Positions 33,829-55,795 of a stretch of DNA of 64,000 nt are shown piece by piece (position 1 is the first letter of the stretch; each line of letters starts with the position of its first letter). Origin of the DNA: Gautieria morchelliformis (Eukaryota; Basidiomycota; Agaricomycetes; Gomphales; Gomphaceae). The stretch lies in NCBI GenBank assembly GCA_015179125.1, contig WHVA01000381.1, positions 49,972 through 113,971 of the forward strand, given 5' to 3'. The notes beneath the pieces were generated by a model, which was not told the DNA's origin, searched no databases, and saw only the letters and a program-made list of their open reading frames with translations. A program made the translations under genes and the position numbers.

Positions 33829-34999
33829 GTGATGCGGGTGATGCGGGTGATGCAGGTTGATGCGGGTGATGTGGGTTGATGTGGGTGATGCGGGTGATGA
33901 TGCGGGTGATGTGGATGATGCAGGTGATGCGGGTGATAAAATAATAGAAGCCATGAATGAAGTGGAAGTGCAGAGATGTGGGTGATGTGGGTGGTGCAGG
34001 GGAAATAAAAGCTTCTGTCACCCGCATCACTGCATGCCATGTGTTCAAGGAAGGGTGCAGTTCATGGTGTTGGTTTGGCATGAGAATCAGCATCAATCCA
34101 TGCACCAACTGTCATGGTCTGGGCATGAGGATGTCCCTCAGTAGCAGCTGTGGGTCTTTGGGTAATGTAGAGACTTCTGTGGCAGGTGAAGTTGACATGT
34201 GTTGCCAGGGAGCATGTTATCCTCTGTCAAGTTGTTGTGAATTTTCTTTGAATGGTGATGCAGATGCAGGTGACGGAAGCTTTTATTTCCCCTGCACCAC
34301 CAGCATCACCCGCGTCACCCACATCACCCACATCCCCTGCACCACCCGCATCACCCGCATCAACCCGCATCACCCGCATCACCCACATCACCCGCATCAC
34401 CCGCATCACCCGCATCACCCGCATCACCCGCATCACCCACATCTCTGCATCAACCCACATCACCCGCATCACCCACATTACCCGCATCACCCGCAATACC
34501 CACGTCACCCACATCACCCGCATCACCCGCATCAACCCGCATCACCCATATCAACCCACATCACATGTATCAACCCGCATCAACCCGCACCTGCATCAAC
34601 CCGCATCACCTGTATCAACCCGCATCACCTGCATCAACCCGCATCACCCGCATCAACCCGCACCTGCATCAACCTGCATCACCCGCATTAACCTGCACCT
34701 GCATCAACCCGCATCAACCCGCATCACCCGCATCATCACCCACATCACTGCATGCTATGTGTTCAAGGAAGTGTGCAGTGCAGTTCATGGTGTCAGTTTC
34801 GGCATGAGAAATCAATCCATATGCTGACTGTCATGGTCTGGGCATGAGGATGTGCCTCAGTAGCAACTGTGAGTCCATTGGGTAATGTAGAGACTTCTGT
34901 GGCAGGGGAAAGGTCGACATGTGTTGCCAGGGAGTGTGTTATCCTCTGTCAAGTTGTTGTCAATAATGGCCTTTTCTTTGAATGGTGATGCAGGTGATG
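33829..34999. repeat. GTGATGCGG satellite with strand switch and duplicated spacer
   Basis: 33829-33940 is a 9-bp array of GTGATGCGG; from 34290 to 34740 the array is in the opposite sense (CACCCGCAT). A spacer of roughly 260-270 bp (34017-34290) beginning CATCACTGCATGCCATGTG is repeated at 34737-34999 with about 85-90% identity. Because 9 is a multiple of 3, all frames on one strand stay open and give HPH, ITR or SPA repeats; these are not genes. Element A is inserted at the right edge. Confidence 0.85.
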
Positions 35000-35466
35000 T
35001 GTTACGTATCGAGATTTCCACTAAGTCGGAACTGGAAAGGACAGCGGCTTCAACTTATAGGTTGCGCCCCCAATGAACTATCGTCCTAGGTATTTCGGAA
35101 AATGAGTCGGAAGTTGGAAAGTACTGAGCCAAAGGTTTGGTCGGAACTTGAGGCGGAACTGAGGTGGAAAGCGGAAGACGGAGAGACTGAGATCTTGCTA
35201 GACTCGCTGTACTAAGAACAGGAGATGGAGCGAAGGAAATCAAGTATCGAAGGTGATTATCTGATTGCAGAATAACAGACATACATGAGGGGTTTTTTAT
35301 ACAAAGCGCAGAGCAACAAGTAATGGTGTTGTACTAAGCAAATTCCGGAGGAAGCGGAAGTCGAGTACAATGTGTGGGAACTAGCGGAACATTGTGCGGA
35401 ACTATTGGAGGGGCGGAAGGAGTGGCGGAACTGAGGGTCGGAAGTCGGAAATGAACGGTCGTAACA
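35000..35466 (-). repeat. 3' LTR of element A
   Basis: 467 bp. A TATAAA box on the sense (minus) strand lies near 35310. Contains about a dozen CGGAA. Confidence 0.85.
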
Positions 35467-35588
35467 GTATCTCCCTTCTAAGGTCGAGCCCCGCGAGACC
35501 ACAAGTCGGAATCACGTGACTTGTGAACAAACGCGTCGGAGTTTGAAATATAGACGGGAAACAAGACGCGTCTTCTGTTTACTCCATC

Positions 35589-36794
35589 ATGAGCTCTTCA
35601 GTCGATTTCTCTAAAATGTCCAGTGCCGAGATGAAGCAGCACTTTGCTGATATTCTTGCGCAGAAGGAACTGGCCGAGAAGCGCGAGGCCGAGGAAGCCG
35701 CGCGGAAAGAGAGGGAGCGGCTGGAGGAGGAGCGCAAGGAACTGGAGCGTCGGGAGCAGGAACGGAAGGAGAAGGAGGAGCGTGACCGTAAGCGTCGCGA
35801 GGAGGAGTCGCGCGCCCGTGAAGAACAACGGAAACGGGATGCGGCCGAAAAGGCTGCGGAAGAAAAGGCCGTGGCGGAAAAGGCAGGGAAGTTCCGGGTG
35901 AGTCGGAAATGTCGTGGGGAGGTTCCGGTGCTCACAGAGAACTGCCAGAGAGTTGCCGATTCCGAGGGGGAGTCGGAAGCGGAAAGCACGCCGACTCCAG
36001 AGGGCAAGGGGAAGCAAAAAGAAAGTGCTCCCATGCCGAACGTAGTTGAGGAGCGGAAACGGAGGGCGGACGAGTTCCAGCAGGCTCGGAAAGAGAAGCT
36101 GGCTCGGATACTGGAGTTGCGAGAGCTGGGGCCAGAAAATCCTGCGACCCGGAAAAGGAAGACCAGGGACGGTGAGGAGGAGAAGGCTCCTTGCGATACG
36201 TGCGAGGTCAAGGGCCTGGAGTGCGTGTGGTCGGAAAATCCGCGGGAGACGGCCTGCGAACGGTGCCGGGACAAGAAGTGCCGTTGCGTGGTGGATGGGT
36301 GTGCCGCGAGGGTGGAGCGGAAACGGCGCAGGGTTGAGACCGAGGGGCCTGAAACCCCCAAGTCAAAACCGGGACCAAGCGGAAAGAAGGCGGAAGGATT
36401 TCCGGTGACCGGAACATCGGAGACAGCGGTGCTGAACCGCTTCAGCATGGCATCTCCGCTGCTAGACATCGCGGAGTCGCTGAGGGGGATCCGGAAAACC
36501 CAACGCGGGATCCGGAAGCTGCTGACGGATATGGCGGTGGTTCAGGAACAGCAGTTGCTGTCGTTCCAGAACCAGATGACCGTCATGTCGGCGGTCCTGG
36601 AGCAGTTCAAGCGCGAGTACCGGTGGCGGAACGAGATGGTCCGGGAAAGGATGGAACCACGGGTGCAGGAGGAGAACGAGGCGGAAACGAGGGAACGGTT
36701 AGACATGGAGTTGGTGGTCGTCGAGGTAGGAGGGTCGGAAAAGGATCCGGAAGCGGAAAGGGAGGTCGAGGTGGAGACCATGAGGGAGGAGTAG
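35589..36794 (+). CDS. Opposite-strand accessory frame of element A: coiled coil plus Zn2Cys6-like cluster
   Basis: A 401-codon open frame running against gag-pol, between integrase and the 3' LTR. Residues 1-35 contain SSAEMKQHFADILAQKELAE; about 25-105 form a long E/R/K-rich coiled coil; about 195-235 hold APCDTCEVKGLEC, a 10-residue spacer, then ACERCRDKKCRC. The spacing C-x2-C-x6-C-x10-C-x2-C-x6-C is that of the Gal4-type binuclear zinc cluster (with one extra Cys). A proline/basic linker and a second helical region (LLDIAESLRGIRKTQRGIRK, QFKREYRWRNEMVRERME) follow. Zn2Cys6 domains of fungal regulators bind CGG triplets. Basidiomycetes also have many proteins with this cluster and no known DNA-binding role, so the function is inferred only. 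The frame is fully open. Confidence 0.65.
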   Translation: MSSSVDFSKMSSAEMKQHFADILAQKELAEKREAEEAARKERERLEEERKELERREQERKEKEERDRKRREEESRAREEQRKRDAAEKAAEEKAVAEKAGKFRVSRKCRGEVPVLTENCQRVADSEGESEAESTPTPEGKGKQKESAPMPNVVEERKRRADEFQQARKEKLARILELRELGPENPATRKRKTRDGEEEKAPCDTCEVKGLECVWSENPRETACERCRDKKCRCVVDGCAARVERKRRRVETEGPETPKSKPGPSGKKAEGFPVTGTSETAVLNRFSMASPLLDIAESLRGIRKTQRGIRKLLTDMAVVQEQQLLSFQNQMTVMSAVLEQFKREYRWRNEMVRERMEPRVQEENEAETRERLDMELVVVEVGGSEKDPEAEREVEVETMREE

Positions 36795-36928
36795 GGTGTC
36801 AAGGTGACTTGTAGTATTTTTCTTGAAGTGTCGGAAATTAGCATATCGGAATAATAATCGGATTTTCTTTTGAATTATGACTTGAGAAATGTAAGCAAGC
36901 CGTGGTGTCGGAATGAGGTCGGAATTGA

Positions 36929-38307
36929 CTAGGGCGCGGAAATGGGGCCAGGCTTGTCAGGACATGACTTGTGGAAGTCAGAGACGAGGTCAGAGGCGTG
37001 GTCAAGTTCCGTGGCAGAAATCCACGAGGTCTCTTCGTCGGTGTTTTCATAGCCTGCCCACTTGACTAGGTACTGGAGTTGGCAGCGGTATCGTCTGTCG
37101 AGCTTGGAGTTGAGAATTTCCGAAATCTCATATTCCGGTTCTCCGTCGATGACGACTGGCGGAGGCGGAGGTTGTTCTCGATTCGGAATTGTATTCGGAA
37201 CTGCTGGCTCAAGCATAGAGACATGGAATACCGGATGTACTGCGCGCATATTGTCAGGAAGTCTGAGGGTGAAAGAACGACTGCCGGCCTTAGCGATGAT
37301 CTCGTAAGGACCGAGGTATTTCTCAGAGAGCTTCTTCGAGGGGCGAGTGGTGCGGAAGTTTTCCGCTTTGACAAAGGCTTTGTCGCCTATCTCGAATGCC
37401 GGTTGCGGAAGGCGTTTCCGATCGGCGGAAGTTTGGTATCTCTTCTGGGCAGCTGTAATGTTCTCTCGGAGGTGCTGGTGAAGGTCGTCAAGTTCCACAA
37501 CGAAATCTCGGGCTCTTGCAGAGGCGAGGTCGCGTTCAGGGTGGATGGCGAGATTCGGGTGGTAGCCCTTGTTGGCGTAAAAGGGTGAAATTCCGGTGGT
37601 AGCGGAAGGCGCATTGTTGTAGGCAAATTCCGCAAGTGGAAGAAGGTCGGACCAATTGCTATGTTGGTAGTTGCAATAGACGCGGAGATACTGCTCAAGG
37701 GTCTGATTAGTACGTTCCGTCTGTCCGTCTCCTTGGGGTGATAACCGGAGGTGAAGTGGAGTTTCATGTCGAGAGCCTTGCCGAGTGTGCGGAAAAAGGA
37801 GGACACAAATTCTGATCCACGGTCGGAAGTGACATGGGAAGGTATTCCGTGCTTGGAAAAGACGTGGAGCACAAAGAGCTGTGCGAGCTGGGCGGAAGTT
37901 ATGGTGTCGTAGGTCGGAATAAAGATGGACTGCTTTGTGAGGCGGTCAACGATCACTAGAATGGTATCATAGCCAGATGACTTAGGAAGTTTCTCAATGA
38001 AATCCATGGATATCGAATTCCATGGTTGTTCCGGGATCGGAAGTTGTTTCAGGAGGCCGTAGGGTTTGTGACGTTGAGGCTTGGCTCGCATACAGGTGGT
38101 GCATGACTTGCAGTAGTCTTGGCCATCGTGCGGAGGAGAGGCCAAGTATAGGTACGTCGGATTATGTCGAGGGTCTTGTTCTGGCCTTGGTGTCCTGAGA
38201 GCGGATGATCGTGGCTTTGCTGGAGCACGCGAAGTCGTAGATCGTTGGTGTCCGGAACGTAAATCCGGGACTTGTACTGGAGAAATCCGTCGGAATCGAG
38301 GGACCAT
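36929..38307 (-). mobile_element. Element A integrase with chromodomain
   Basis: Integrase zinc-binding CxxC (SCTTCMRAKPQRH), catalytic core MDFIEKLPKSSGYDTILVIV and SDRGSEFVSSFF, and at the C-terminus a chromodomain (YRCQLQYLVKWAGY, DEETSWISATEL). Chromodomains target chromovirus integration to modified histones. The reading frame is broken, about once or twice. Confidence 0.85.
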
Positions 38308-40475
38308 CCAGGACTGGTGGGGTCATCGAGGTGGGTTGCGGAGGTGGGGTCGGAACGGAGTGCGGAACGGATGTCGGAATGGAGAGACTCGGTGTCCATA
38401 ATAATTGAGGCGCAGAGTAGCGGAAACTGCAATGCTGTGGCGCGCAGGGACGATGCCAGTTGCTCAGTAGAGAATACTGGGCGGAAATTGTGCGGATTAA
38501 CGCTGGCATAGTCGCTGCTTCCCTCTTTTGGGTAGACGTCCCAACGTCTAGTGAGCGCGTCGGGTTTTGCTCCGAGCTTTCCGGGGCGGAAACGGATCAC
38601 CATGTTGAACTGTGAGAGGTATTCAGACCAGCGGACTTGACGGCGAGTCAAAATCTTAGTGGTTGCAAAATACTCAAGGTTCTTATGATCCGTTACAACG
38701 TCGATCGGATAAGTTGGACCTTCGAGGTAATGTCTCCAGATTTTGAAGGCTTCGAAAATCGCAAGTAGTTCCTTATCGTGGACGTCGTAGTTGAGTTCCG
38801 GGGCGGAAAAGGTGCGGGAATGAAAGGCGATCGGATGAATTTCTCCGTCGTCGGGTGAAATGATGGAAAGAATGGCGGCTACCGTGTAGTCAGAAGCGTC
38901 GGTTTCGAGTACAAGTTGGGCATCAGGAATCCAGAAACCGAGTATGGGAGCCGTGGTGAAGGCCGATTTGAGAGCTTCAAATGCGGAACGGCATTCCGGT
39001 GTGAAATTCCATGGGGCACCCTTCCTGGTGAGACGCGTGAGCGGAACAGTAATGTCGGAAAAATTATAAATGAAACGCCGGTAAAAGTTGGCGAAGCCAA
39101 GGAAAGACTGCACATCCTTAACACGTCGGGGTTCCGGCCATTCTTGAATTGCCTTGACCTTGTCCTCTGCCATGGTAAGACCTGTTGGAGAGAGGATGTA
39201 GCCGAGGTATTCGACCGTGTCGCGATGCCATTCGCATTTCTCTGCTTTTGCGTAGAGATGGTGTTTGCGTAGGCGGCGGAGTACTTCGCGGACATGTTCC
39301 CGATGTTTTTCCGGTGTGTCGGAATAGATGAGGATGTCGTCAATGTAGACTAGAACGCATACGTCGAGGAGGTCGGAAAATACGTCGTTCATGAATCGCT
39401 AAAAAGCGGCGGGAGCGTTGGTTAGACCAAAAGGCATGACAGTCCACTCAAAGGCACCGTAGCGGGTGCGGAAGGTGGTTTTCCACTCGTCACCTTCCCG
39501 GATGCGGACAAGGTGATAAGCGTGCCGGAGGTCAATTTTGGTGTAGATCTTCGCCCTGCGGGGAGTGTCGAGTAAGTCGGAAATGCGCGGAAGCGGATAT
39601 TTGTCCTTTTTAGTGAGGGCATTGAGTCCGCGGAAATCGACGCAGAGGCGGAGAGATCCATCCTTCTTCTTGACGAAAAGGACCGGAGCACCGTGCGGAG
39701 ACAGCGAAGGGCGGATAAAGCCCATGTTGAGATGTTCATCGACGAACTCTCGGAGAGTTAGGAGTTCACTTTGCGAAAGAGAGTAGATCGGTCCAAGGGG
39801 CGGAGATGCTCCTTCTTCCAAATCTATCTTCAAGTCGTAAGGTCGATGTTCAGCAGGTTTGTCGGCTTTGGCCTTATTGAACACATCCGGGAAGTCACGA
39901 TATTCATCCGGAACTGAGCTCATGTCGACCGGAGCGGAAGTTGAGGCGGAACGAGCCTTGACTGAAGCCGAATCGGAGAGGTGAAGCTGGAAGACGGTCG
40001 TATCATCTTGCCGTTGCAATACGCGGAAAGCGGTGGCGGAAACGAGCGCAATTCGAGGGGCTTCGAGGGGCGGAGGTGCTAAAGCGGGACCGGAGTGCGG
40101 AACTGAATCCACGAGCGGAGTTGCAGAAGAGGCCTGTGCCATCTTTGCAGAAGACGTCGGAATAGATGGAAGTTGATCCGGGGTACGGAACTGTATTTGA
40201 CCCAATGCCCAGTTAATCGACGGATTATATCGGGTGAGCCAATTGTGTCCTAGTACAACGGAACAGCTAGCATCTAGCGGAGTAACGTAAAACGTAACTT
40301 CATGGTTGTCCCCAGTAGCGAAACGGATAGACAGATCCACAACTTGGGAAATTCCCGTGTTGGAAGACCCGTCGAAAAGGCGGAGCAGAATAGTCGGAAT
40401 GTTGCGGGTCGGAAGTTTATGTTTCAAAACAAAGTCGGAATCGAGGAAACAATGAGTCGAACCGGAGTCGACCAA
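38049..40475 (-). mobile_element. Element A protease, reverse transcriptase and RNase H
   Basis: Protease motif near the start ([15 protein letters not shown]), RT motifs [20 protein letters not shown] and VYIDDILIYSD, and RNase H with LETDASDYTVAAIL and HDKELLAIFEAF. The order is that of Ty3/gypsy pol. One break lies within RT. Confidence 0.85.
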
Positions 40476-40630
40476 TGCTGTAAACGGGGGTGCGGAAATG
40501 GTGTCGGAAGTGAGCGGAACAGAGAGAGAGTCGGAGGACGAAAGAGCGGATGCGTTGAGTTTAACCTCGTTTGTCGCACGAATGGGGTCAACACAGCCCT
40601 CAGCTTGTGCGGAGGCCGGAGGACTGCTGA

Positions 40631-42043
40631 CTATTTTTTTGAATCCGCAGTGGGAACCGCTTCGGATTTCTCTTCCGTCTTTGCTGTGCGGCCCTTGGCC
40701 TTAGCAGCGGAGGCGGAAGCGCGAGTGCAGTCGCGAGCGACGTGACCTCCTTTGCCGCAGAAGAGGCAAAGGTTGTTGTCCATGCGACGCTGGCGTTCTA
40801 CAGGGGTTAGTTTTCCGTCCTTCCCAAGTTTGTCGGAAAGATCCGGGGTACTCTTCCGGGCGTTGGTGTTAGAACCAGAGGCCTGGTTGTTCCGAGGGGT
40901 GTTGTTGTTGTTCCGGTTGCCGGAGTTGGATCCGGAACTGTTGTTGTTGTTGTTTCCGGAGTTGGTGTTTCCGGAATTGGTCTTCTTCTTGTCTTTATCA
41001 GACTTCTTGTCGGAAGACTTGTCGTTCTTGCTCTGGGCGGAGGTTTCACGAGCAATCTCGGAGTGTCTTTCCCAGTAGCGCGAATCGATGGATTGGGTGA
41101 GGTTGCGGAGGTCGGTAAGGGTGGCGGGTTTTCCGACGCGGGCAATTTCATCCTTGATGCGGGATGGCAAGCCCATGTAAAACTGGCGTCGGAGTGCGGC
41201 TTCTCCCCATTGGACTCGAGGAGCGAGCTGCTGAAACGTGACGATATATTTAGCTATCTTATGAGTGTCTTTCATGCGAAGCTTATCGAGTTCGTTTTCC
41301 GCATCGGCTTCCATATCAAATGGTCCGAAGTTACTGCGGAGTTCGGAAATGAAATTGGGGTAATCGTCGGCCCAGTCGACGAGAGCGAACTGATCCATGA
41401 GGGCGGGTTCGAAATAGTCGAGCGCCGTGCCTCGGAGATAGGAAAGGGCATAATTGACCTTTCGTTCGTCGTCGGGAAAGGCGTCGGGACGATCACGGAA
41501 ATTGAGTTGAAGCTGAACCAGAAATGGCTGGAGCTTCTTGGGGTCGGAACCGTCGAACTGATCTGGTTCGCGGACCTTTGTCTTGGGGCGTGGTGGTGCT
41601 TGGGCCGGGCACTGGAGTTGTCCGGCTAGCATGGCGATGGCTTGTGCAAGATCCGGAACTGGCGCGGGCGGAACTGGGTTGGCGGGAATCTGAGGTGGAA
41701 TTGGAGGTGGAGGACCGCCGGGAGGACCGCCTGGGGGACCGCCGGGTGGGCCGCCATGAGGGCCGCCTGGAGGTGGTGGTGGTGGAGCTGGGCGTCGGAA
41801 TGACGCTGCTGTTTGTTCGCCGCTGCTACTCGTTGAATTCCCGTCGTAGTCGGGATTTTCGTCGGGATTAGCGTCGGGAACTTCTTCGAATCGTTGCGGA
41901 AAAGCATCGGAAAGCTCATCGTCGGCACGAGAGCTGCTGGAGGGTTCCGCGTGCCTTGGTGCTGCGGATCTAAGACTGCCAAAATAAGAGAGAGCTTCGA
42001 CAGCTCCTGCTCGAGCTGAAGTAGCTGTGGTACGAGGAGGCAT
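40631..42043 (-). mobile_element. Element A gag (470 codons)
   Basis: An open frame with a proline/glycine-rich low-complexity stretch (PPGGPP repeats), a capsid-like core (REPDQFDGSDPKKLQPFL) and a CCHC zinc knuckle (CLFCGKGGHVARDC) near the end, followed by a Lys/Ala-rich tail. Appears open along its length. Confidence 0.85.
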
Positions 42044-42076
42044 AGTGATAGTTATCGGGTGGGAATCAGATAATAC

Positions 42077-42271
42077 TGTTACGTATCGAGATTTCCACTA
42101 AGTCGGAACTGGAAAGGACAGCGGCTTCAACTTATAGGTTGCGCCCCCAATGAACTATCGTCCTAGGTATTTCGGAAAATGAGTCGGAAGTTGGAAAGTA
42201 CTGAGCCAAAGGTTTGGTCGGAACTAGTGGCGGAACTGAGGGTCGGAAGTCGGAAATGAACGGTCGTAACA
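42077..42271 (-). repeat. 5' LTR of element A (short copy)
   Basis: 195 bp with the same termini as the 3' LTR and identical where they overlap. The gag frame starts 33 bp away on the sense strand. Confidence 0.85.
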
Positions 42272-42310
42272 TGATGCAGAAGTGCAGTGATGTGGGTGAT
42301 GCACAGTACT
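42272..42310 (+). repeat. Right remnant of the GTGATG satellite
   Basis: TGATGCAGAAGTGCAGTGATG followed by GGGTGATGCACAG continues the array interrupted at 34999; the first five bases are the target duplication of element A. Confidence 0.7.
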
Positions 42311-43989: not shown

Positions 43990-44975
43990 TGACAGAAGGA
44001 TAAGTCTTGGATAGGGTAGGGATGCGGCCTTTGACTCGAGGCCGAGTTCGATGTAGATCGCAAGAGGGGAAGGCAACTCGGATGTTCGACTAGTGACTCG
44101 AAGTCAAACAAAATATCAAAGAGGTTCGTGTTCATTAATTATTCAGTCATACATTGCATACTACTTATAGCTGCTCGGATAGGGGTCTCGGTATGTGGGG
44201 ATGAGCGATGGGGATAGTGGAATTGTGCATATGGTAGGTGCGTACATACCGCCGCTATTGTACATCCGTGCTGCAGATCGCTTACTTGGTCTGGCCTGGA
44301 CGTGAGGTGGAAGGGATACCCTTATGTGGTGGCTCGAAGGATAAGGCGGGATGGTAGGAGAGACTGGGTAGGAATAATATGTGCGGCTCGAAGGTAATGG
44401 AGAATATATGTTGCGTTCCCTGATCGTGATGTGTGATCGACTCATTCCATCCTGGTACTTGGCTCGTCAACAGTGCTCGTGCCTCGACTCGACTCGTGAT
44501 ACGGATCTAGGTGCTCGGGAGTAATATGTTGGTCTCAACTCGACTCGGTGAGTATCGGTGTGTGTCTGTGGTGTCGTCTCATGTGTCGATGGCTCGGGTG
44601 TGTGCGTATGTATCTCGTGGTGCTTGGGGTGAGGTTAGATAGTGAGAGAGATAGATCGTTAGGATAATCGTGAATAGAGATTGTTGTAGTAGACATTATG
44701 GGTCATAATTTGTGTGTGCGAAGTTGTGAAATAAACCGAGTGGCATAAGAGTCCGTAACCGTTAAGTCTTTCCTCACGACACTCCCCCTCAAGCCCGACG
44801 TATCCCTAGAAGCTCTAGGGTATGGAGGTGCTTGCGCGGTGTGAGTGGTTTCGTCAGTATGTCGGCGGGATTCTCGATGGTTTTGACGTAGCGTAGATCG
44901 ATGTTGCCCGCAGCGACTTGTTCTTTCGTGTAGTGGTAATGGATATCGATGTGTTTGGTACGGTTGTTACTGACG
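43990..44975 (-). mobile_element. Ty1/copia 3'-end fragment with one LTR, TSD CTAAT, inside the D LTR
   Basis: CTAAT occurs on both sides (43985-43989, 44976-44980). On the minus strand the fragment opens in the last part of pol: NNRTKHIDIHYHYTKEQVAA and NPADILTKPLTPRKHLHTLE, the end of copia RNase H. A GGGGGAG purine tract and an LTR from TGTCGTGAGG (44781) to CTTCTGTCA (43990), 792 bp, follow. Only this 3' portion is present. It is unusual for an LTR element to have a target duplication around a partial copy. Confidence 0.75.
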
Positions 44976-45397
44976 CTAATGACGAAGCCACAACCTAAAG
45001 ATACTCAAGGGGATAGTGGCCGATACAAGGACAATAACCAACTGTGTAGTGGGTATCCTCAGTTTATAAGTCTACCAACGATAGATACATGGGGACTTGC
45101 CTGTGTAGTGGGTATCCTCAGAGATCAAGCTGAGGAAACGCCACCACACTGGCTACAGTCTTATAGCGCTGGCAAGGCTTACATAATAGGGGAGGCGGAA
45201 ACTTGTAGAAGGTTGTGGAAGGTTGTGGAAGATGATAGAAACTCATGGAAGGTTACGGAAACTGACGGAAGGTTATGGAAACTGACGGAAGGTGACGGAA
45301 ACTCATGGAAGGAAATAGAAACTTGTGGAAGGAAACGCGTGAACCCTGACATCACCCCCCTCTCAATGCTTGTCGTCCCGAAAAGCACAGCTGCCAC

Positions 45398-45959
45398 CTA
45401 GCCCCCAACATCCACCGAGACATCATTTCCAAGTATGCCACAGGCGGGACCACCATCTCTCCTGGCCCTTCCCTTCCTGGTAATGCAGGTCAATGATGAG
45501 CTCAGGGGGATTGGGGTCCATGGGCAAGTGCGGCCCTCGGAACCTTGCTCGACGTAGTCGCTCTCCTGCCATGTTACAGAAACGCCGCCCCACCCAGCCT
45601 TCGAAAGTGTGGGGGGTTCCACAAGGGGGGGTGCCATCATTGAGGAAGACAGGGTCGCCGATGTAGTACATGTTCTCTCATCTGTGTCGAGGTCTGAGGA
45701 ATGCGAGTGCAGGGCGAGTGGGTGCCTGACTCTTCGCTGGTGTGAGGTCCTCAGAGCTGATGGACCACTTTGAAGACCATGCGACATCGAGATCATGGCA
45801 GTCAAGCATCCTTTGTAACTTGGCTTCACTGGCTGCTCTGGATGACGAGAAGCCGGAGAAGTGCAGGAAGGGGGGATCGACACGTGACATGTTTGGCAGG
45901 TCAGAGAGGTTTTGGGTGAAGCTGGGGAGGGCAACAAGCTCAATGGCGGGCGAGGACAT
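45398..45959 (-). mobile_element. Accessory 3' frame of element D
   Basis: Lies downstream of the chromodomain on the sense strand; MSSPAIELVALPSFTQNLSD opens it and TFEGWVGRRFCNMAGE follows in a second frame. The homologue at 25355-25980 shows that both halves are conserved in another element. No known domain is recognised. Broken in this copy. Confidence 0.6.
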
Positions 45960-46065
45960 GGTTGATGGATGTGGTGGGGTCGATGCAGTGGAAGTGAGTG
46001 GTCACAGGTGGAGAGGGGATATATAGCTTATTGGAATGAATTGGTTAGGCAGAGGCCGATATCGC

Positions 46066-48943
46066 TTATCTTTGGGGTTCTGGACCCTTGACATTATGAG
46101 TAGAAGCCCTGCCTGCTGTCCAGTCGAAGAGAGTTTGCCTGGAAGGTTCTGTGAAGTTCTGAAATCTCTGGAAGGGGAGGGACATGTATGTGGCTGCTGA
46201 GATACGCTGAGGTGCCTCTGGGTTCTGCATGTGAAATTCCTTAACGAGTCGCTTTGCCCCAGAGACATCTTTCGCCGGTAGCCAGAGATCGTCAGCAGCT
46301 CCATAGCCCTTGCAGCGCACGAGATACTCCAACCTTCCACGGAACATCCTGCTGTCTAGAATCCTTTCAACTTCATATTCTTCGGCTCCATCCCATATGA
46401 CAGGGGGGGGGGTGGAGGGGCATGATGTTCAAGAATTGGGTCATCTTCATATTGCCAAAGCAGGATGACAGAGAACACTGGATGTGTGCGACCAAAGGAT
46501 GCAGGAAGATTTAGACCATAGGCATTTTGTGAGACCACCTTATTAACAGTGTAGGGGCCTAGCCACTTGTGGTCTAGCTTCTTCATTGGGCGAGTGGTTG
46601 TGATGTTTTATGCATTGAGCCAAACCTTGTCACCAAGCTTATAAACTGGGGCTGCTTTATGGTGCATGTCATAGAAGCATGCCATGTCCTCTGCTGCCTT
46701 GGACAGGGCTGAACGAGCTTCCCTTGTGGCCGCTTCCATCCGCGTTGTGAACTCATCCAGGGCCTCAAGTCGAGTTTCCCGGACTGGTTCCAGTCCCAGC
46801 CTTGGATGTTGGCCACTGTCCAACATGAAGGGTGTAGTCTGGGTTGAGGCATGGATTCGGTTGTTATAGGCAAACTCAGCCAAGGATATCCATTCAAACC
46901 AATCATCCTGACGCTGGTTGATGAATAGTCGATGGTATTTCTCAATCTCCTGATTAACCCTTTCAGTCTGTCCATCAGTTTGGGGGTGATAAGCAGTAGA
47001 GGCAGCGACTTTGACACCAAGAAGTTTGTTCAGTTCACGCATGAACTGGGAGATGAACTGTGTGCCTCGATCACTGATGATTTCTTCAGGGAGCCCATGA
47101 AGTTTCCAAACATGATCACGGAAGAGTCGGGCAACTCCCACTGAAGTTACATCTGAAGTGGTGGGAATGACATGTGCACGCTTTGAGAGGCGATCGACAA
47201 CAACAAGGAGAGCATCATAGCCATGACTGGTAGGCAGTTCTACAATCAAGTCAACAGACATAACCTGCCATCTACGGTCTGGGATACGGTTTGGTAGAAG
47301 CTTGCCAATGGGAGAAGCAGGGAAGGTTTTTGTCCGGTTGCACAGGTCACAGGCCTTCACATATTTTGCAATGTAACGTCCCATCCCAGGCCACCAGTAA
47401 CTCCGAGCAACTAGTTCAGTGGTTCTCCAACGACCAGGGTGACCGGTGAGAGGCATGTCATGGTGCGCTTTCACTATGTCATGTCGTAGTTTTGCATCAA
47501 GCGGCACGTACACTTTGTTGTGATAGAGGACAAGCCCATCCCGGTCTACACAGTTCCTTACTTGATTGAGGAAAGCATCACCTTCACCTGGGACTAACTG
47601 TGCGCCAGCCTCTGGAGGATTTGCCTTGATGTGGAACAAGTCAGGGGTAAGTAAGACTTGATTTTGGTTGTCTTCCTCACCCCGCTTATGATCCACGTGT
47701 CATGAGAGTGCATCAGCCTTGGCTGAATGACGACCAGGACGATGGATCAGCTCAAAATCAAAGCGAGAGAGGTAGAGTGACCAGCGTGCTTGACGACGGT
47801 TCAGGTTTTGTGCGGTGCAGAAGTAGGTGAGATTCTGATGGTCATTGAGAATCTCAATCTTGTGCTTTGTTCCCTCTAAGATGTGGCACCATTCCTCTAA
47901 TCCCCGAATCACAGAAAGAAGCTCCTTGTCATGGATGGCATAGGTGCGTTCAGCATCATTGAGGCTTTTGGACACAAACCGCACAGGCCACCATTTGCCA
48001 ACATCACATAGCTGGGACAGTACTGCTCCTGTGGCATAGGCCGAGGCATCTGTTTCAAGATGGAAATGTTTGTCTTGATCAGGGAGGACAAGGATCGGTG
48101 TTGAGGTGATGAGGAGTTTGAGCTTGCCGACGGACGCTTGCTCTGGGCCATTCGGATCCCAAGACCATTGGGCATCCTGTTTTGTCAACTGGTTGAGGGG
48201 CTTTGCAATGTGTGAGAAGTCTTCCACAAATTGACGGTAGAAGTTGATGAAACCAAGGAATGATTTGACTTCAGTGACGTTACATGGCATTGGCCAGTCC
48301 TGCACTCCTGCAACCTTGACTGGGTCCATGGCAACCTGTCCTTGAGAGAGGATGAGGCCAAGATACTCCACCTCTAGTTGCTCAAATAGGCATTTTTCAG
48401 GTTTGAGGTACAGGCTGTTGGCCCGGAGGATTTCAAGGACACGTCGTACAATCCTACGATGTTCTTCAAGCGACTCTGTGAAGATAAGAATGTCGTCCAT
48501 GAACACCACCACAACCCCTTCATTGATGAGACTCTTGAAGATGTCATTCATCATCGTCTGGAAGGTTGCTGGGCTGTTCGTGAGTCCAAAGAACATGACT
48601 AGAGGTTCATACAGGCCCCTATTTGTCCGAAAGGCTGCCTTCCACTCATCTCCCTCTTTTATGCGTACATTATTATATCCCCAGCGAATGTCAACTTTGT
48701 GAAGTATTTAGCCCTTCCAGCAGCAATATTATTCATGATGTCTGGAACAAGGGGCAAAGGATAGGCATTCTTGATTGTTATATCATTGAGCTTCCGGTAG
48801 TCTTGCACAAATCTAAGACTGCCGTCCTTTTTCTTCACAAAGAAGACTGGAGATGCCATAGGTGACTTGGAAGGATGGATACGATGGCTCTTCAGGTTCT
48901 CCTCAAGGAAGTTATCCAGTTCCCTTTGCTCAACCGGTGACAT
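46066..48943 (-). mobile_element. Element D RT-RNase H-integrase-chromodomain
   Basis: RT motifs [18 protein letters not shown] and VVFMDDILIFTES; RNase H HLETDASAYATGAVL; integrase HHCC zinc site (HDMPLTGHPGRWRT, KACDLCNRTK) and core motifs LLVVVDRLSKRAHVIP and AYHPQTDGQTERVNQE; chromodomain RGRLEYLVRCKGYGAADDLW. Several breaks. Confidence 0.85.
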
Positions 48944-49072
48944 TGGGTAAACCTTTGTGCTGAAGGGTTGTGCAGCTCAATCACAGTCCCAGGGCTTTCA
49001 AGGAGGCAGTTGGTCAAATGACTCCTTAGAAAACACATCCTTGAACTCCTGGTATGGTTTAGGGACAAGGTC

Positions 49073-49560
49073 TGTTGGGTGCATTTATGCTCCTGCACCA
49101 AAATCAAGCATAATGTATTCGATTTATTGTATGGTGTTTCAATTTCTTCTCACATTGTTCTTGTACCATGCATTCTTTTCTCTGATTATTTTCGAAATTT
49201 TCCAGTCACTCCCTATCTCTCCATTTCATTTTGTTATCTCTATTTTCACAGGCGGCTGCACCCAGCGGAGTTTGAAATGACTTCGACGCACGAGCTCTTG
49301 GGCGCTAAAGGGCCGGGTGCACGTATATGCCTTCTGAGACAGGATAGTGCTCCTCTCTCAGTGATAATAAATTCACTGAGAGAGGCGAGTAGTATTCTTT
49401 GTATTTTCATAACATGTTGACTGAAAATCATGTAGTGAATTTAATTCTAGGTACTGTACTAATATATAAGTGACAATAAATTCACTGAGAGAGTGAATTT
49501 AATTCTAGCTTTCTAAGAACTCTACCGAACCTTCCCTGCCATAACCCCAAGTTGCTAACA
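49073..49560. mobile_element. Solo LTR G, copy 2 (488 bp), TSD AGGTC, inside element D
   Basis: TGTTGGGTGCATTTATGC at 49073 to CCAAGTTGCTAACA at 49560; AGGTC on both sides (49068-49072, 49561-49565). Inverted relative to the copy at 27557-28044, same length, with scattered differences. Confidence 0.85.
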
Positions 49561-49889
49561 AGGTCCTCGAAGGATCTGACTGGTGCAGACTTGCTGGCCC
49601 GTTCAGCAAGCTGTTGGGAGACAGTCCAGCCTGCGCCAATTGTTTCAGGACTCTCATTCACAAAGATGACAAAGGTCCTGTCTCCTTCCTCAAGTAGGGA
49701 GCGGGTGTGCTGTATAGGAACCTCCTCTTGATCTACACTCTCTTCTGGAACAGTTTCGACTGTGGGCCCTCTGACAGCAGGTCTGCCCCCACATGACTTG
49801 GGACAGCGTGTCATCTTCACATCTCCTGTACGCCAGTTAACTTCTGGGTTGTGTTCAACAAGCCATGTGTGACCAAAAATGATGGCAAG

Positions 49890-51487
49890 TCATCCAAGGC
49901 TTGTGACAGAGAATGTGGCACGTTCCGTATGATCCCCAAAGGTGCAAATGAGGTCGACTTCTTCCTTGATTGAGCCAGCCTCATTTGGAGTACTATCAAT
50001 ATTGTAGACGGGGATGGCACGGGGTAGGGGACGGGTCCGAAGTCTGTGTTCCCTTACAAACTCCACATCGATGAACATCCCTGTAGCACCACTGTCAAGG
50101 AGGGAGTCAATTGCAAGTGGATGCCCTGTGTCAACAGAGTGGACCTTGAGAGGTACTTTGGTGCATCGGCGGAGGTCAGCAGTACGGACATATAGAGGGA
50201 TTGGAAGGTTTGCATTAGCAACTGGAGCGATGGGTTGGGCTTTTGGCATGGCTGGTTTGGTTTCAGTTTGATCAGGGGTAGGAGAAGGATGCATCATATC
50301 GCCTGTGATCCCTATTGTACATGTTTCGAGAACTGAAAATCGATTTGTCGAGCGGGGCATGTCTTTCACCGCTGACTGGCCTAAAAGCCCTTTCCCTCCT
50401 CTTGGACAGGGGGTTCTACCTTCTGTTTGCGTTCCTCCATTGCCACTGCTACAGATTTAGAGACAATTGCTGCAATGTCTGCCTCTGTGAGGTTTTCACG
50501 GATTCGTGGCTTGCGAGGTTCAGGACAGTCTGGTGAAATGTGACCAGGTCTCTTACAGTTGTAGTAGGTCCGTGTTTCTGTGCAGCGGCGGGATGAGTCA
50601 ATGTCCATAGGTGTCGCATTACTGGGTCGTGCTGTGACAACAGGCGCCATAGCAGGAGTGTGGAGTGGTCGGGCAGGAGGAGGGTGATTAGGAACATGAG
50701 GTGTCTGTGCCTTCCTGACCTCTAACAGACGGCGATGATTGCGGTCAATCTGACAGGCTGCTTCCTTCCAGCCTTTGAGGTTGGGTGGAAGAAAGGGCCG
50801 GGCGTGGATCTTGTCAAGGATACCTGCTGGAAGGCCACGAGCATAGGCATCCTCGAGTGCCTCATCATTAAAGCCTGTCCTGCCTGCCAGGATCTCAAAT
50901 TGAGCCGTGTATTCATCTGCCGACATTCCTGATGTCATCCTGAGGTCATGCAGCTTAGTGCGAGCAGTTCTGGCACGATCTGGGTCCCCAAAGGCCTCCT
51001 CCACACGTTTAATGAACTCCTCCAGAGTGGATATAGAGGAGGTGCCATCAATGACAGCCTGTGTCTCGTTGTGTGCCCATATCTCCGCAGAGCCTCCCGT
51101 CATGAAGGAAAGAGCATATAGGATCTTTGTGCGCTCATCTGGGAAGGATGCTGGCTGTACGGTGATGGACAACTTGATAGACCTGATAAACCCTTCAGTC
51201 TCTGCACGGTCTCCATTGAACTTCTCTGGTTCTGCTGCTTTGATAGAGCGAGTAGATGGAGGGACACTGTGAGGTACTGAGGGCGCAAGGGCTTGAGCAG
51301 CAGCAACAGCAGCATTGGTGGCAGCATTGGCTAAGTGGTCATGAACATTAACAATCCGATTGTGCAGCTCCTGATTCTGCAGTTGAAGTTGCTGCAGCTG
51401 CTGTGCTTGGCTGGAAAGGAGGCCTCGAAGAAATGGCCCATGTTCACCCAAAGAGTTCCAGTATGCCTCCAGGAGTTGGTCTGCCAT
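49890..51487 (-). mobile_element. Element D gag and protease
   Basis: Gag opens MADQLLEAYWNSLGEHGP, has a capsid-like core (AEPEKFNGDRAETEGFIRSI) and a zinc knuckle-like YYNCKRPGHISPDC. A separate frame carries the protease motif AIDSLLDSGATGMFIDVEF. Some breaks are present. Confidence 0.8.
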
Positions 51488-51547
51488 AGGCTGAGATGAA
51501 GGTTGGTTAAGAAAAGTGTGTGGGGTCGTCCTACGAGCTTGATCTTC

Positions 51548-52016
51548 TGTGAGGGCAACACTAATGATGAAGCCACAACCTAAAGATACTCAAGGAGATA
51601 GTGGCCGATACAAGGACAATAACCAACTGTGTAGTGGGTATCCTCAGTTTATAAGTCTACCAACGATAGATACATGGGGACTTGCCTGTGTAGTGGGTAT
51701 CCTCAGAGATCAAGCTGAGGAAACGCCACCACACTGGCTACAGTCTTATAGCGCTGGCAAGGTTTACATAATAGGGGAGGTGGAAACTTGTAGAAGCTTG
51801 TGGAAGATGATAGAAACTCGTAGAAGGTTATGGAAGGTGACAGAAACTGACGGAAGGTGACGGAAACTGATGGAAGGTTACGGAAACTGATGGGAGGTGA
51901 CGGAAACTGATGGAAGGTTACGGAAACTGACGGAAGGTTATGGAAACTGATGGAAGGTGACGGAAACTCATGGAAGGAAATAGAAACTTGTGGAAGGAAA
52001 CGCGTGAACCCTGACA
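51548..52016 (-). repeat. 5' LTR of element D with internal minisatellite
   Basis: 469 bp. About 51780-51990 consists of a variable array of 'GGAAACTGATGGAAGGT(T/G)AC' type units. The corresponding array in the 3' LTR (about 45187-45335) has fewer units, which explains most of their length difference. Confidence 0.8.
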
Positions 52017-54583: not shown

Positions 54584-55795
54584 TTACAGCTGTTTTGGGT
54601 ACATAGGGCAGAGTCTGAAATACATGCTGCCCAGTGCTGCTCGAAAAGATCAAGCTGTATCTCCACAGCAATTGATGATTAAGGGTTGGTACTTTGTATA
54701 TATTCTGTACTATGTAGTAGCTACCCTCTGATATACAAAACCTGGCTTATTCTGAGTTATTGAATATTTGGATAATTTCACTTATATGCATCATTATGCA
54801 CTCAAATTCTGTTACGTATCGAGATTTCCACTAAGTTGGAACTGGAAAGGACAGCAGCTTCAACTTATAGGTTGCACCCCCGATTAACTATCGTCCTAAG
54901 TATTTCGGAACTGAGTCGGAAGCCGGAAAGTACTGAACCAAAGGTTTGGTCGGAACTTGGGTCGGAACCGAGGCGGAAGCCGGAAAGACGGAAAGCGGAG
55001 TGACTGAGATCTTGCTAGACTCGCTGTGCTAAGAACAGGAGATGGAGCAAAGGAAATCAAGTATCGAAGGCGATTATCTGATTGCAGAATAACAGACATA
55101 CATGAGGGGTTTTTATACAAAGCGCAGAACAACAAGTAATGGTGTGGTACTAAGCAAATTCCGGAGGAAGCGGAGGTCGAGTACAATGTGTGGGAACTAA
55201 CTGTTGGGAACAATGGGACTACAAGGGGGGTTCAGGGTAAGGTAGAACAATGGCAAAGAACAAGGGGTCGGGAAAACATATCTGACAACGAACTACAAGG
55301 GTGACCGGATATATGGTTTTGATGAACGATGAAGCGGGTCCGGTGGGTCCGAGTAATAGAGTCGAAAGAACAGGGGAATAGAACAATGGGCGGAATGTCG
55401 GAAATGTCGGAGGGGTGGAACGTGTTGCGGAAATATCGGAGGGGCGGAAGATGTGGCGGAACTGAGGGTCGGAAGTTGGAAATGAACGGTCGTAACAAAT
55501 TCCTTCAGTAAGGTCTGTAACTTTCTCAGATTATAGTAATATACATGTATAAATGTTGGAAATAGAAAACAATGATGTAATCTCCAGGTTATGGAAGGGG
55601 GAGGGGTGCATGTCTGTTTGCCTTCTCCCAGCCTTTTTAGCCTTCTACATAGCCAAAGCCTCAGGTTTAAGGACTTAAATATATATAACCTCTATATATA
55701 CCCTAATTACATTGATGTGACAGTACCTTGCTTCATCTGCAAGTCTTGCCAGCATGATATCGTGACAGTTGCGCGACCGCCATCAGGTGACCGCT
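54584..55795 (+). repeat. Dispersed repeat B, copy 2, interrupted by a solo LTR
   Basis: 54584-54809 and 55498-55795 together match 30098-30620. The interruption is the solo LTR at 54810-55497. Confidence 0.75.
54810..55497 (-). mobile_element. Solo LTR of family A (688 bp), TSD AATTC
   Basis: Same termini as element A (TGTTACG...CGTAACA) and high identity over the shared parts, plus a middle block not present in the A LTRs, suggesting a longer subfamily. AATTC flanks both sides (54805-54809, 55498-55502), and the intact copy of the host repeat at 30319-30323 has a single AATTC, a pre-insertion site. Confidence 0.9.

Follow-up and report, generated by a model that had tools for sequence, protein, structure and literature searches.

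VANDAL elements are DNA transposons that carry a Mutator-type transposase. In work on the VANC proteins of Arabidopsis, short family-specific motifs are described that lie densely in the family's own VANDAL copies, the word differing between related families (PMC5735166, PMC10398659). The motifs are 8-9 bp long and occur mainly in non-coding tandem repeats, and both VANC binding and loss of methylation have been shown (PMC5735166, PMC10398659). AT9TSD1, an unrelated transposable element (TE) sharing a VANDAL word, was affected by VANC6 (PMC5735166). Here we analyzed a 64,000-nucleotide stretch of the fungus Gautieria morchelliformis (contig WHVA01000381.1; henceforth the window), in which a long terminal repeat (LTR) retrotransposon of the Ty3 chromovirus type, element A, is saturated with the pentamer CGGAA and its complement TTCCG. 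Five of the seven Ty3 families sampled in this genome, A included, proved to be saturated in this manner, with four different words.

A first-pass annotation of the window had counted by hand about 105 CGGAA and 30 TTCCG in A (35000-42271). The exact count was 106 and 30, compared with a first-order Markov expectation of 16 for CGGAA. Neighboring DNA lacks this density, as had been noted: the rest of the window contains 58 CGGAA and 34 TTCCG in 56.7 kb or, once an A-like LTR remnant and both LTR arrays of a neighboring element are masked, 32 and 33 in 55.2 kb, which is 0.6 per kb on each strand. For the shuffle test, the synonymous codons of each gene segment were permuted among themselves, leaving protein and codon usage intact; the test is conservative because codon usage itself holds part of the effect. 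In the coding DNA of A (6204 bases), CGGAA/TTCCG was found 108 times with 36 expected (z about 15), ranked first among the 512 pentamers, and none of 400 shuffles held any pentamer that extreme. Codon-preserving shuffles with a ranking of all pentamers, the check that the annotation had proposed, therefore do not reproduce the density, and its view that codon or peptide constraint does not explain the motif is borne out. The features of A and of the A-like LTR remnant in the window are as follows.

34995-34999, strand not applicable: left copy of the target site duplication TGATG, read from the sequence
35000-42271, minus strand (that of gag-pol): LTR retrotransposon A, Ty3 chromovirus, 106 CGGAA and 30 TTCCG
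35000-35466, minus strand: left LTR, TGTTACG...CGTAACA, 13 CGGAA and 1 TTCCG (words counted over 35000-35469)
35589-36794, plus strand: antisense accessory gene of 401 amino acids, convergent with pol, cysteine pattern C-X2-C-X6-C-X10-C-X2-C-X6-C, 23 CGGAA and 4 TTCCG
36929-40700, minus strand: pol with protease, reverse transcriptase (RT), RNase H, integrase zinc domain, SH3 and chromodomain, broken
40631-42046, minus strand: gag with retrotransposon-gag and Ty3 capsid matches, 13 CGGAA and 10 TTCCG counted on the plus strand
42077-42271, minus strand: right LTR, internally shortened, 7 CGGAA and 0 TTCCG
42272-42276, strand not applicable: right copy of the target site duplication TGATG, read from the sequence
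54805-55515, strand not applicable: A-like LTR remnant, 91.8% identity across 392 bp, 14 CGGAA

As the annotation had it, the word is dense throughout, in LTRs, gag and pol as well as in the antisense frame, and every one of the three codon phases is represented. All five coding segments are enriched, with the highest density in the LTRs and in the short gap 36794-36928. The strong strand bias that had been claimed stands for the LTRs (CGGAA:TTCCG 13:1 and 7:0) and for one pol segment (39399-40630), where one orientation occurs 19 times with 7.7 expected and the other 0 times with 0.5 expected; elsewhere it mostly disappears once codons are controlled. The two orientations in the coding DNA of A number 47 versus 16.7 and 61 versus 19.9 expected, and since each is about threefold enriched over the shuffles, the excess of one strand is mostly due to base composition and codons. 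Enrichment alike on both strands is therefore a property of the double-stranded DNA.

Sixty loci were fetched, either through the gag of A or through an RT match. Of these, 58 belong to A (30 found with gag and 28 forming a single RT cluster), and they represent 52 distinct places, the window copy among them. CGGAA or TTCCG ranked first or second among the raw pentamers in all 58, and the two non-A loci, L035 and L036, contain about 1 per kb. The accessory frame of the window was compared with eight diverged ones (59-77% amino acid identity by tblastn; four with stops). CGGAA was the top pentamer in all nine, with z from 3.2 to 6.3; the nine frames are homologous to one another, and the lowest z values taken alone lie within the best-pentamer range of the shuffles. 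L061 and L065, the two frames of lowest DNA identity, have 9 and 12 sites in common with the window copy and 10 of their own each, and the other six have 9-18 in common and 2-8 of their own. Sites of the A family turn over, being gained as well as lost, while density stays. Many of the losses in diverged copies are TGGAA or CAGAA, the products of CpG decay.

Families B to E were chosen among the highest-scoring matches to RT and RNase H, which biases the sample toward well-preserved families; the survey covers one genome and few elements per family. The pol of B (L070) is 69% identical to that of A across 427 amino acids, its word is CCTCG/CGAGG (61 versus 28 expected, z 7.7), and CGGAA is not enriched there (14 versus 11). 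C (L035 with L064), about 55% identical to A, has the word GCGAA (z 5.2). D (L078 with L076) is 40-42% identical to A in pol and contains CGGAA 98 times with 28.5 expected (z 15.7). In E (L079 with L077), whose identity to D is 61-72%, the word is ATCGC (39 versus 15, z 6.8-7.2). The words of B, C and E each exceed all 400 shuffles. Mean word spacing is 55-123 bp in A, B, D and E, and Pfam recognizes a chromodomain in A, C, D and E. No coding pentamer went beyond the shuffle range in F and G, two other broken Ty3 elements of the window, nor, in the longest frame of each, in four Copia loci and three foreign Ty3 elements from bacterial assemblies. Because the background and the coding parts of Copia, F and G lack enrichment, word saturation is not genome-wide. 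Other elements at the level of A were to count against the annotation's reading; D does reach that level, and F, G, the four Copia loci and the background do not.

Short pieces of B were also found in L083 and in L071. L083 was rejected as a new family, since it is 92% identical to B over 1453 nucleotides. L071 (1-5601) is a mosaic of at least two elements and was not counted as a family; it contains a CGGAA-rich RT piece, an accessory-like frame (CCTCG on top, z 3.7) that does not match the cysteine-spacing search pattern, and a piece 92% identical to B, and it probably arose by nested insertions. Scans of viral contigs with the A pol, part of the D pol and the accessory protein found no relative. 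One scan of genome contigs yielded the three foreign Ty3 elements (L080, L081 and L082), in assemblies filed as an alphaproteobacterium, a Synechococcales cyanobacterium and Tolypothrix, respectively; they are probably eukaryote contamination.

The word shared by A and D is exact. Of its 15 one-mismatch neighbors only CGGAT is raised in A, weakly (1.74-fold); it is also raised in D (1.60-fold), together with TGGAA (1.47-fold) and CGGAG (1.23-fold), and the remaining neighbors are at about 1 or below in both elements. A and D also have in common a preference for T or G at position -1 and for G at +7, which extends the word to KCGGAANNG. This exactness and these flanks read like the binding preference of a protein. 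The CpG level outside the motif is 1.07 in A, 0.80 in D and 0.76 in the rest of the window.

All 114 A sites within 35589-42046 sit in different 15-mers and the 98 coding sites of D in 97 different 15-mers; most sites were therefore not made by tandem duplication. Regular spacing across the element was rejected, as site gaps in A, B and D match random placement; those of E are slightly more even (20 of 1000 simulations were as even). On a local scale, same-strand spacing of 12 bp occurs 6 times in the coding parts of A with 1.3 expected, the left LTR has several CGGAA pairs at a distance of 12 bp, and D sites lie at multiples of 6 bp 26 times with 5.5 expected, part of which is due to a short hexamer array. 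About 20 tandem copies of the 12-bp unit CGGAACGGAGTG were seen at G000:C2:271307-271551.

Aligned sites were compared between families. In the aligned part of pol, A has 18 sites and D has 19, only 1 of which is at the same place and strand, and 5 of the 18 A sites lie within 6 nucleotides of a D site, with about 3 estimated under random placing. Short stretches of DNA (31-369 bp, 67-87% identical, most of them in pol) match between A and D, and these do not bring the motif sites of the two into the same places. Where D has a site, E has the D word at 1 of 54 aligned places, and at 1 of 20 where the amino acids are all identical; conversely, the E word is present in D at none of 31, 16 of which have identical amino acids. 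Similarly, B has the A word at 2 of 31 aligned A sites, and A the B word at 2 of 24 B sites. These alignments indicate that the words were written separately, often without protein change. D, a distant Ty3 family, converged on the KCGGAANNG of A at other places, and closer relatives hold other words.

The antisense accessory gene of A encodes a protein in which the pattern C-X2-C-X6-C-X10-C-X2-C-X6-C is present in all nine members examined. The spacing range of Zn2Cys6 clusters (PF00172) is C-X2-C-X6-C-X5-12-C-X2-C-X6-8-C, into which that of A (X2, X6, X10, X2, X6) falls. The gene is under purifying selection: across five comparisons, three of which have a dS above 1, the ratio of nonsynonymous to synonymous rates (dN/dS) of the frame was 0.15-0.24. 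The A protein had 106 matches, from 103 scored of 1078 candidates. An antisense frame is present in B too; its cysteines are similarly spaced, X15 in the middle placing it outside the Zn2Cys6 range, and its protein had 139 matches, from 133 scored of 567 candidates; among the matches listed most are without internal stop. Searches of solved structures with the accessory protein and its alignment gave a best E of 0.078, to coiled or charged proteins. The antisense proteins of A and B would be natural candidates for a reader of the word, and carrying one is not required for saturation.

Since both orientations are enriched, the word is exact, a distant family converges on it and close ones diverge, the words look like selected double-stranded binding sites whose reader would differ by family. 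The annotation had put forward a binding site or an unusual mutational process; the former fits best, and the latter is disfavored by words that differ between close relatives, by the word common to A and D and by the undepleted non-motif CpGs of A. Largely silent point changes have filled A and several other Ty3 elements over their full length with a short family-specific word. We propose that this word is recognized in double-stranded DNA by a sequence-specific protein, which would most likely be a zinc-cluster one. For A and B this reader would be the element's own antisense zinc-cluster-like protein; in D and E it would be made elsewhere, by another family or by the host, and D may borrow that of A. 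By analogy with VANC on VANDAL copies, dense binding could mark the element's own copies and prevent their silencing by chromatin. The data show saturation, an exact word, symmetry between strands, specificity to the family and convergence; that a protein reads the word, which protein this would be and what its dense binding would do we infer. The proposal as a whole is tentative: we consider it plausible, stopping somewhat short of calling it probable. Its extension to a genome-wide address-word code of retrotransposons, with CpG-containing words, zinc-cluster readers encoded antisense to pol or borrowed from another family, self-recognition against silencing, switches of word among close relatives and sharing by parasites, is conceivable and rather unlikely.

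Several observations weigh against the proposal. Motif CpGs among young gag copies of A do not decay clearly more slowly than others, with 12 of 638 versus 78 of 2929 from the window to the copies, and 0 of 631 versus 141 of 3000 from the copies to the window, counts in which the same few sites are reused. Pfam Zn_clus gave the cysteine cluster of A 12.7 bits with a cut-off of 21 (L065 reached 14.4 bits, also below it), the B protein had no Pfam match at E up to 1, and BLAST finds no more than chance similarity between the proteins of A and B (E 3.4). In D, from LTR to LTR, and in E, from within the left LTR to the right LTR, gag-pol is the sole gene, and the fetched 3' part of C has no antisense frame of at least 100 amino acids beyond pol, where two sense frames of 149 and 164 amino acids were found. 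The antisense protein cannot be the whole explanation, since D and E reach saturation while lacking an accessory gene and none is seen in that part of C. The words of C, D and E each come from one element and that of B from one element with two further short pieces; the codon-controlled signal of one such piece, L083, is weak when taken by itself (CCGAG, z 3.1, third). Finally, unlike VANDAL motifs as described, the words here fill coding and non-coding DNA of Ty3 elements alike, mostly through point changes in unique contexts.

The readers could instead be DNA-binding proteins of the host, the families having been filled independently with sites for a host factor (an activator, an architectural or a boundary protein) and the antisense gene doing something else. 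This is unlikely but to be taken seriously, as it would accommodate the saturation of D and E, which have no accessory gene, and the extended word KCGGAANNG, on which A and D converge at a pol identity of about 40%. It would also suit the CGGAA triplets of the genome, which at 12-bp steps number 894 + 897, copies counted, versus 0 + 4 for the reversed pattern, with 0 at steps of 13 and 11. However, A and B, the families seen with antisense zinc-cluster-like genes, differ in word, and D could borrow the protein of A much as the unrelated AT9TSD1 is described as affected by VANC6. Moreover, ordinary activation should need sites in the LTRs only, not in all of pol.

Control of the element by itself, through an encoded repressor that limits copy number or through binding that blocks insertion into its own copies, we regard as improbable; it would fit the conservation of the antisense gene and its convergence with pol, and also the random-like spread of sites in A, B and D, which is more in keeping with coverage than with control of a promoter. 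A similarly low probability is given to context-dependent mutation, or protection of bound CpGs from decay, that accumulates the word without benefit to the element. All four words contain CpG, many losses in diverged copies are TGGAA or CAGAA, and D has a non-motif CpG level (0.80) that differs little from the 0.76 of the remaining window, with TGGAA raised (1.47-fold). In A, however, CpGs outside the motif are undepleted (1.07), so that retention alone cannot raise its counts. A and B, and likewise D and E, are close yet differ in word, whereas the distant A and D share theirs. The word thus does not follow the RT type, and an origin in RT type or in mutation across the genome does not fit. 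Five exact positions with preferences at -1 and +7 also argue against such a process. Codon, codon-pair, peptide or RNA-level constraint, for which strand base composition was all that could be found, is scarcely credible, as it fails the synonymous shuffles and does not account for both orientations, the LTRs, all codon phases or the negative coding parts of other elements.

Concerning the structure of A, Retrotrans_gag, Ty3_capsid, RVP_2, RVT_1, RNase H, Integrase_H2C2, SH3_Tf2-1 and Chromo were above the Pfam cut-off and the zinc knuckles below it, and no Pfam match to the integrase core (rve) was found in the frames of the broken window copy, whose pol has one in-frame stop and one frame change. 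Open frames in other A copies reach up to 1257 codons. An internal stretch of the left LTR (35000-35466) that is flanked by two CGGAACT-like repeats is absent from the right LTR (42077-42271), which looks as if it had been deleted between motif copies. Bordering the insertion site, 33829-34750 consists of short tandem repeats rich in ACCCG-type words. Another Ty3 element, at 44973-52016, has a broken pol on the minus strand (38% identity to that of A); YGGAA arrays at 10-bp steps, many units of which are TGGAA or TAGAA, occupy its probable LTRs (about 44973-45359 and 51558-52016), and its genes are without arrays.

It is unusual for a DNA word to be selected so strongly that several kilobases of gag and pol are recoded, and in this genome the same is seen in several families, with different words. 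Among the matches listed, no description of word saturation of this kind was found in the open-access literature. To our knowledge, TE self-recognition of this sort is known from one plant DNA transposon group only. If the reader is indeed encoded by the TE, this would be self-recognition by a retrotransposon, and, the words being readable straight from genomes, an arms race between silencing and anti-silencing would become testable in fungi.

In comparison with known systems, A resembles fungal Ty3 chromoviruses in its LTRs, target site duplication, gag, protease, RT, RNase H, integrase zinc domain and chromodomain, which follow the Ty3 order, and differs from them in the word saturation and in the antisense zinc-cluster-like gene downstream of pol (A and B). 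The A protein is like fungal Zn2Cys6 regulators in its six-cysteine spacing and in the basic residues around the cluster, but it scores below the Pfam cut-off and has these residues in the second half of the cluster, the canonical layout placing them in the first half. Zn2Cys6 members often read CGG triplets, and the sites of yeast Stb4 and Rdr1 contain CGGAA. Unlike VANDAL elements, A encodes a Ty3 gag-pol and no Mutator-type transposase, two saturated families are without an accessory gene, and the sites counted in A and D lie almost all in distinct 15-mers instead of non-coding tandem repeats, short arrays occurring in LTRs. The reader is TE-encoded in VANDAL/VANC as described, whereas in A and B a TE-encoded protein is a candidate. 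As in the described VANDAL/VANC system, a family-specific word is dense in the family's own copies, not exclusively so as A and D share it; related families differ in their word, and a word may be shared more widely, there by an unrelated TE and here by D, a family distant from A.

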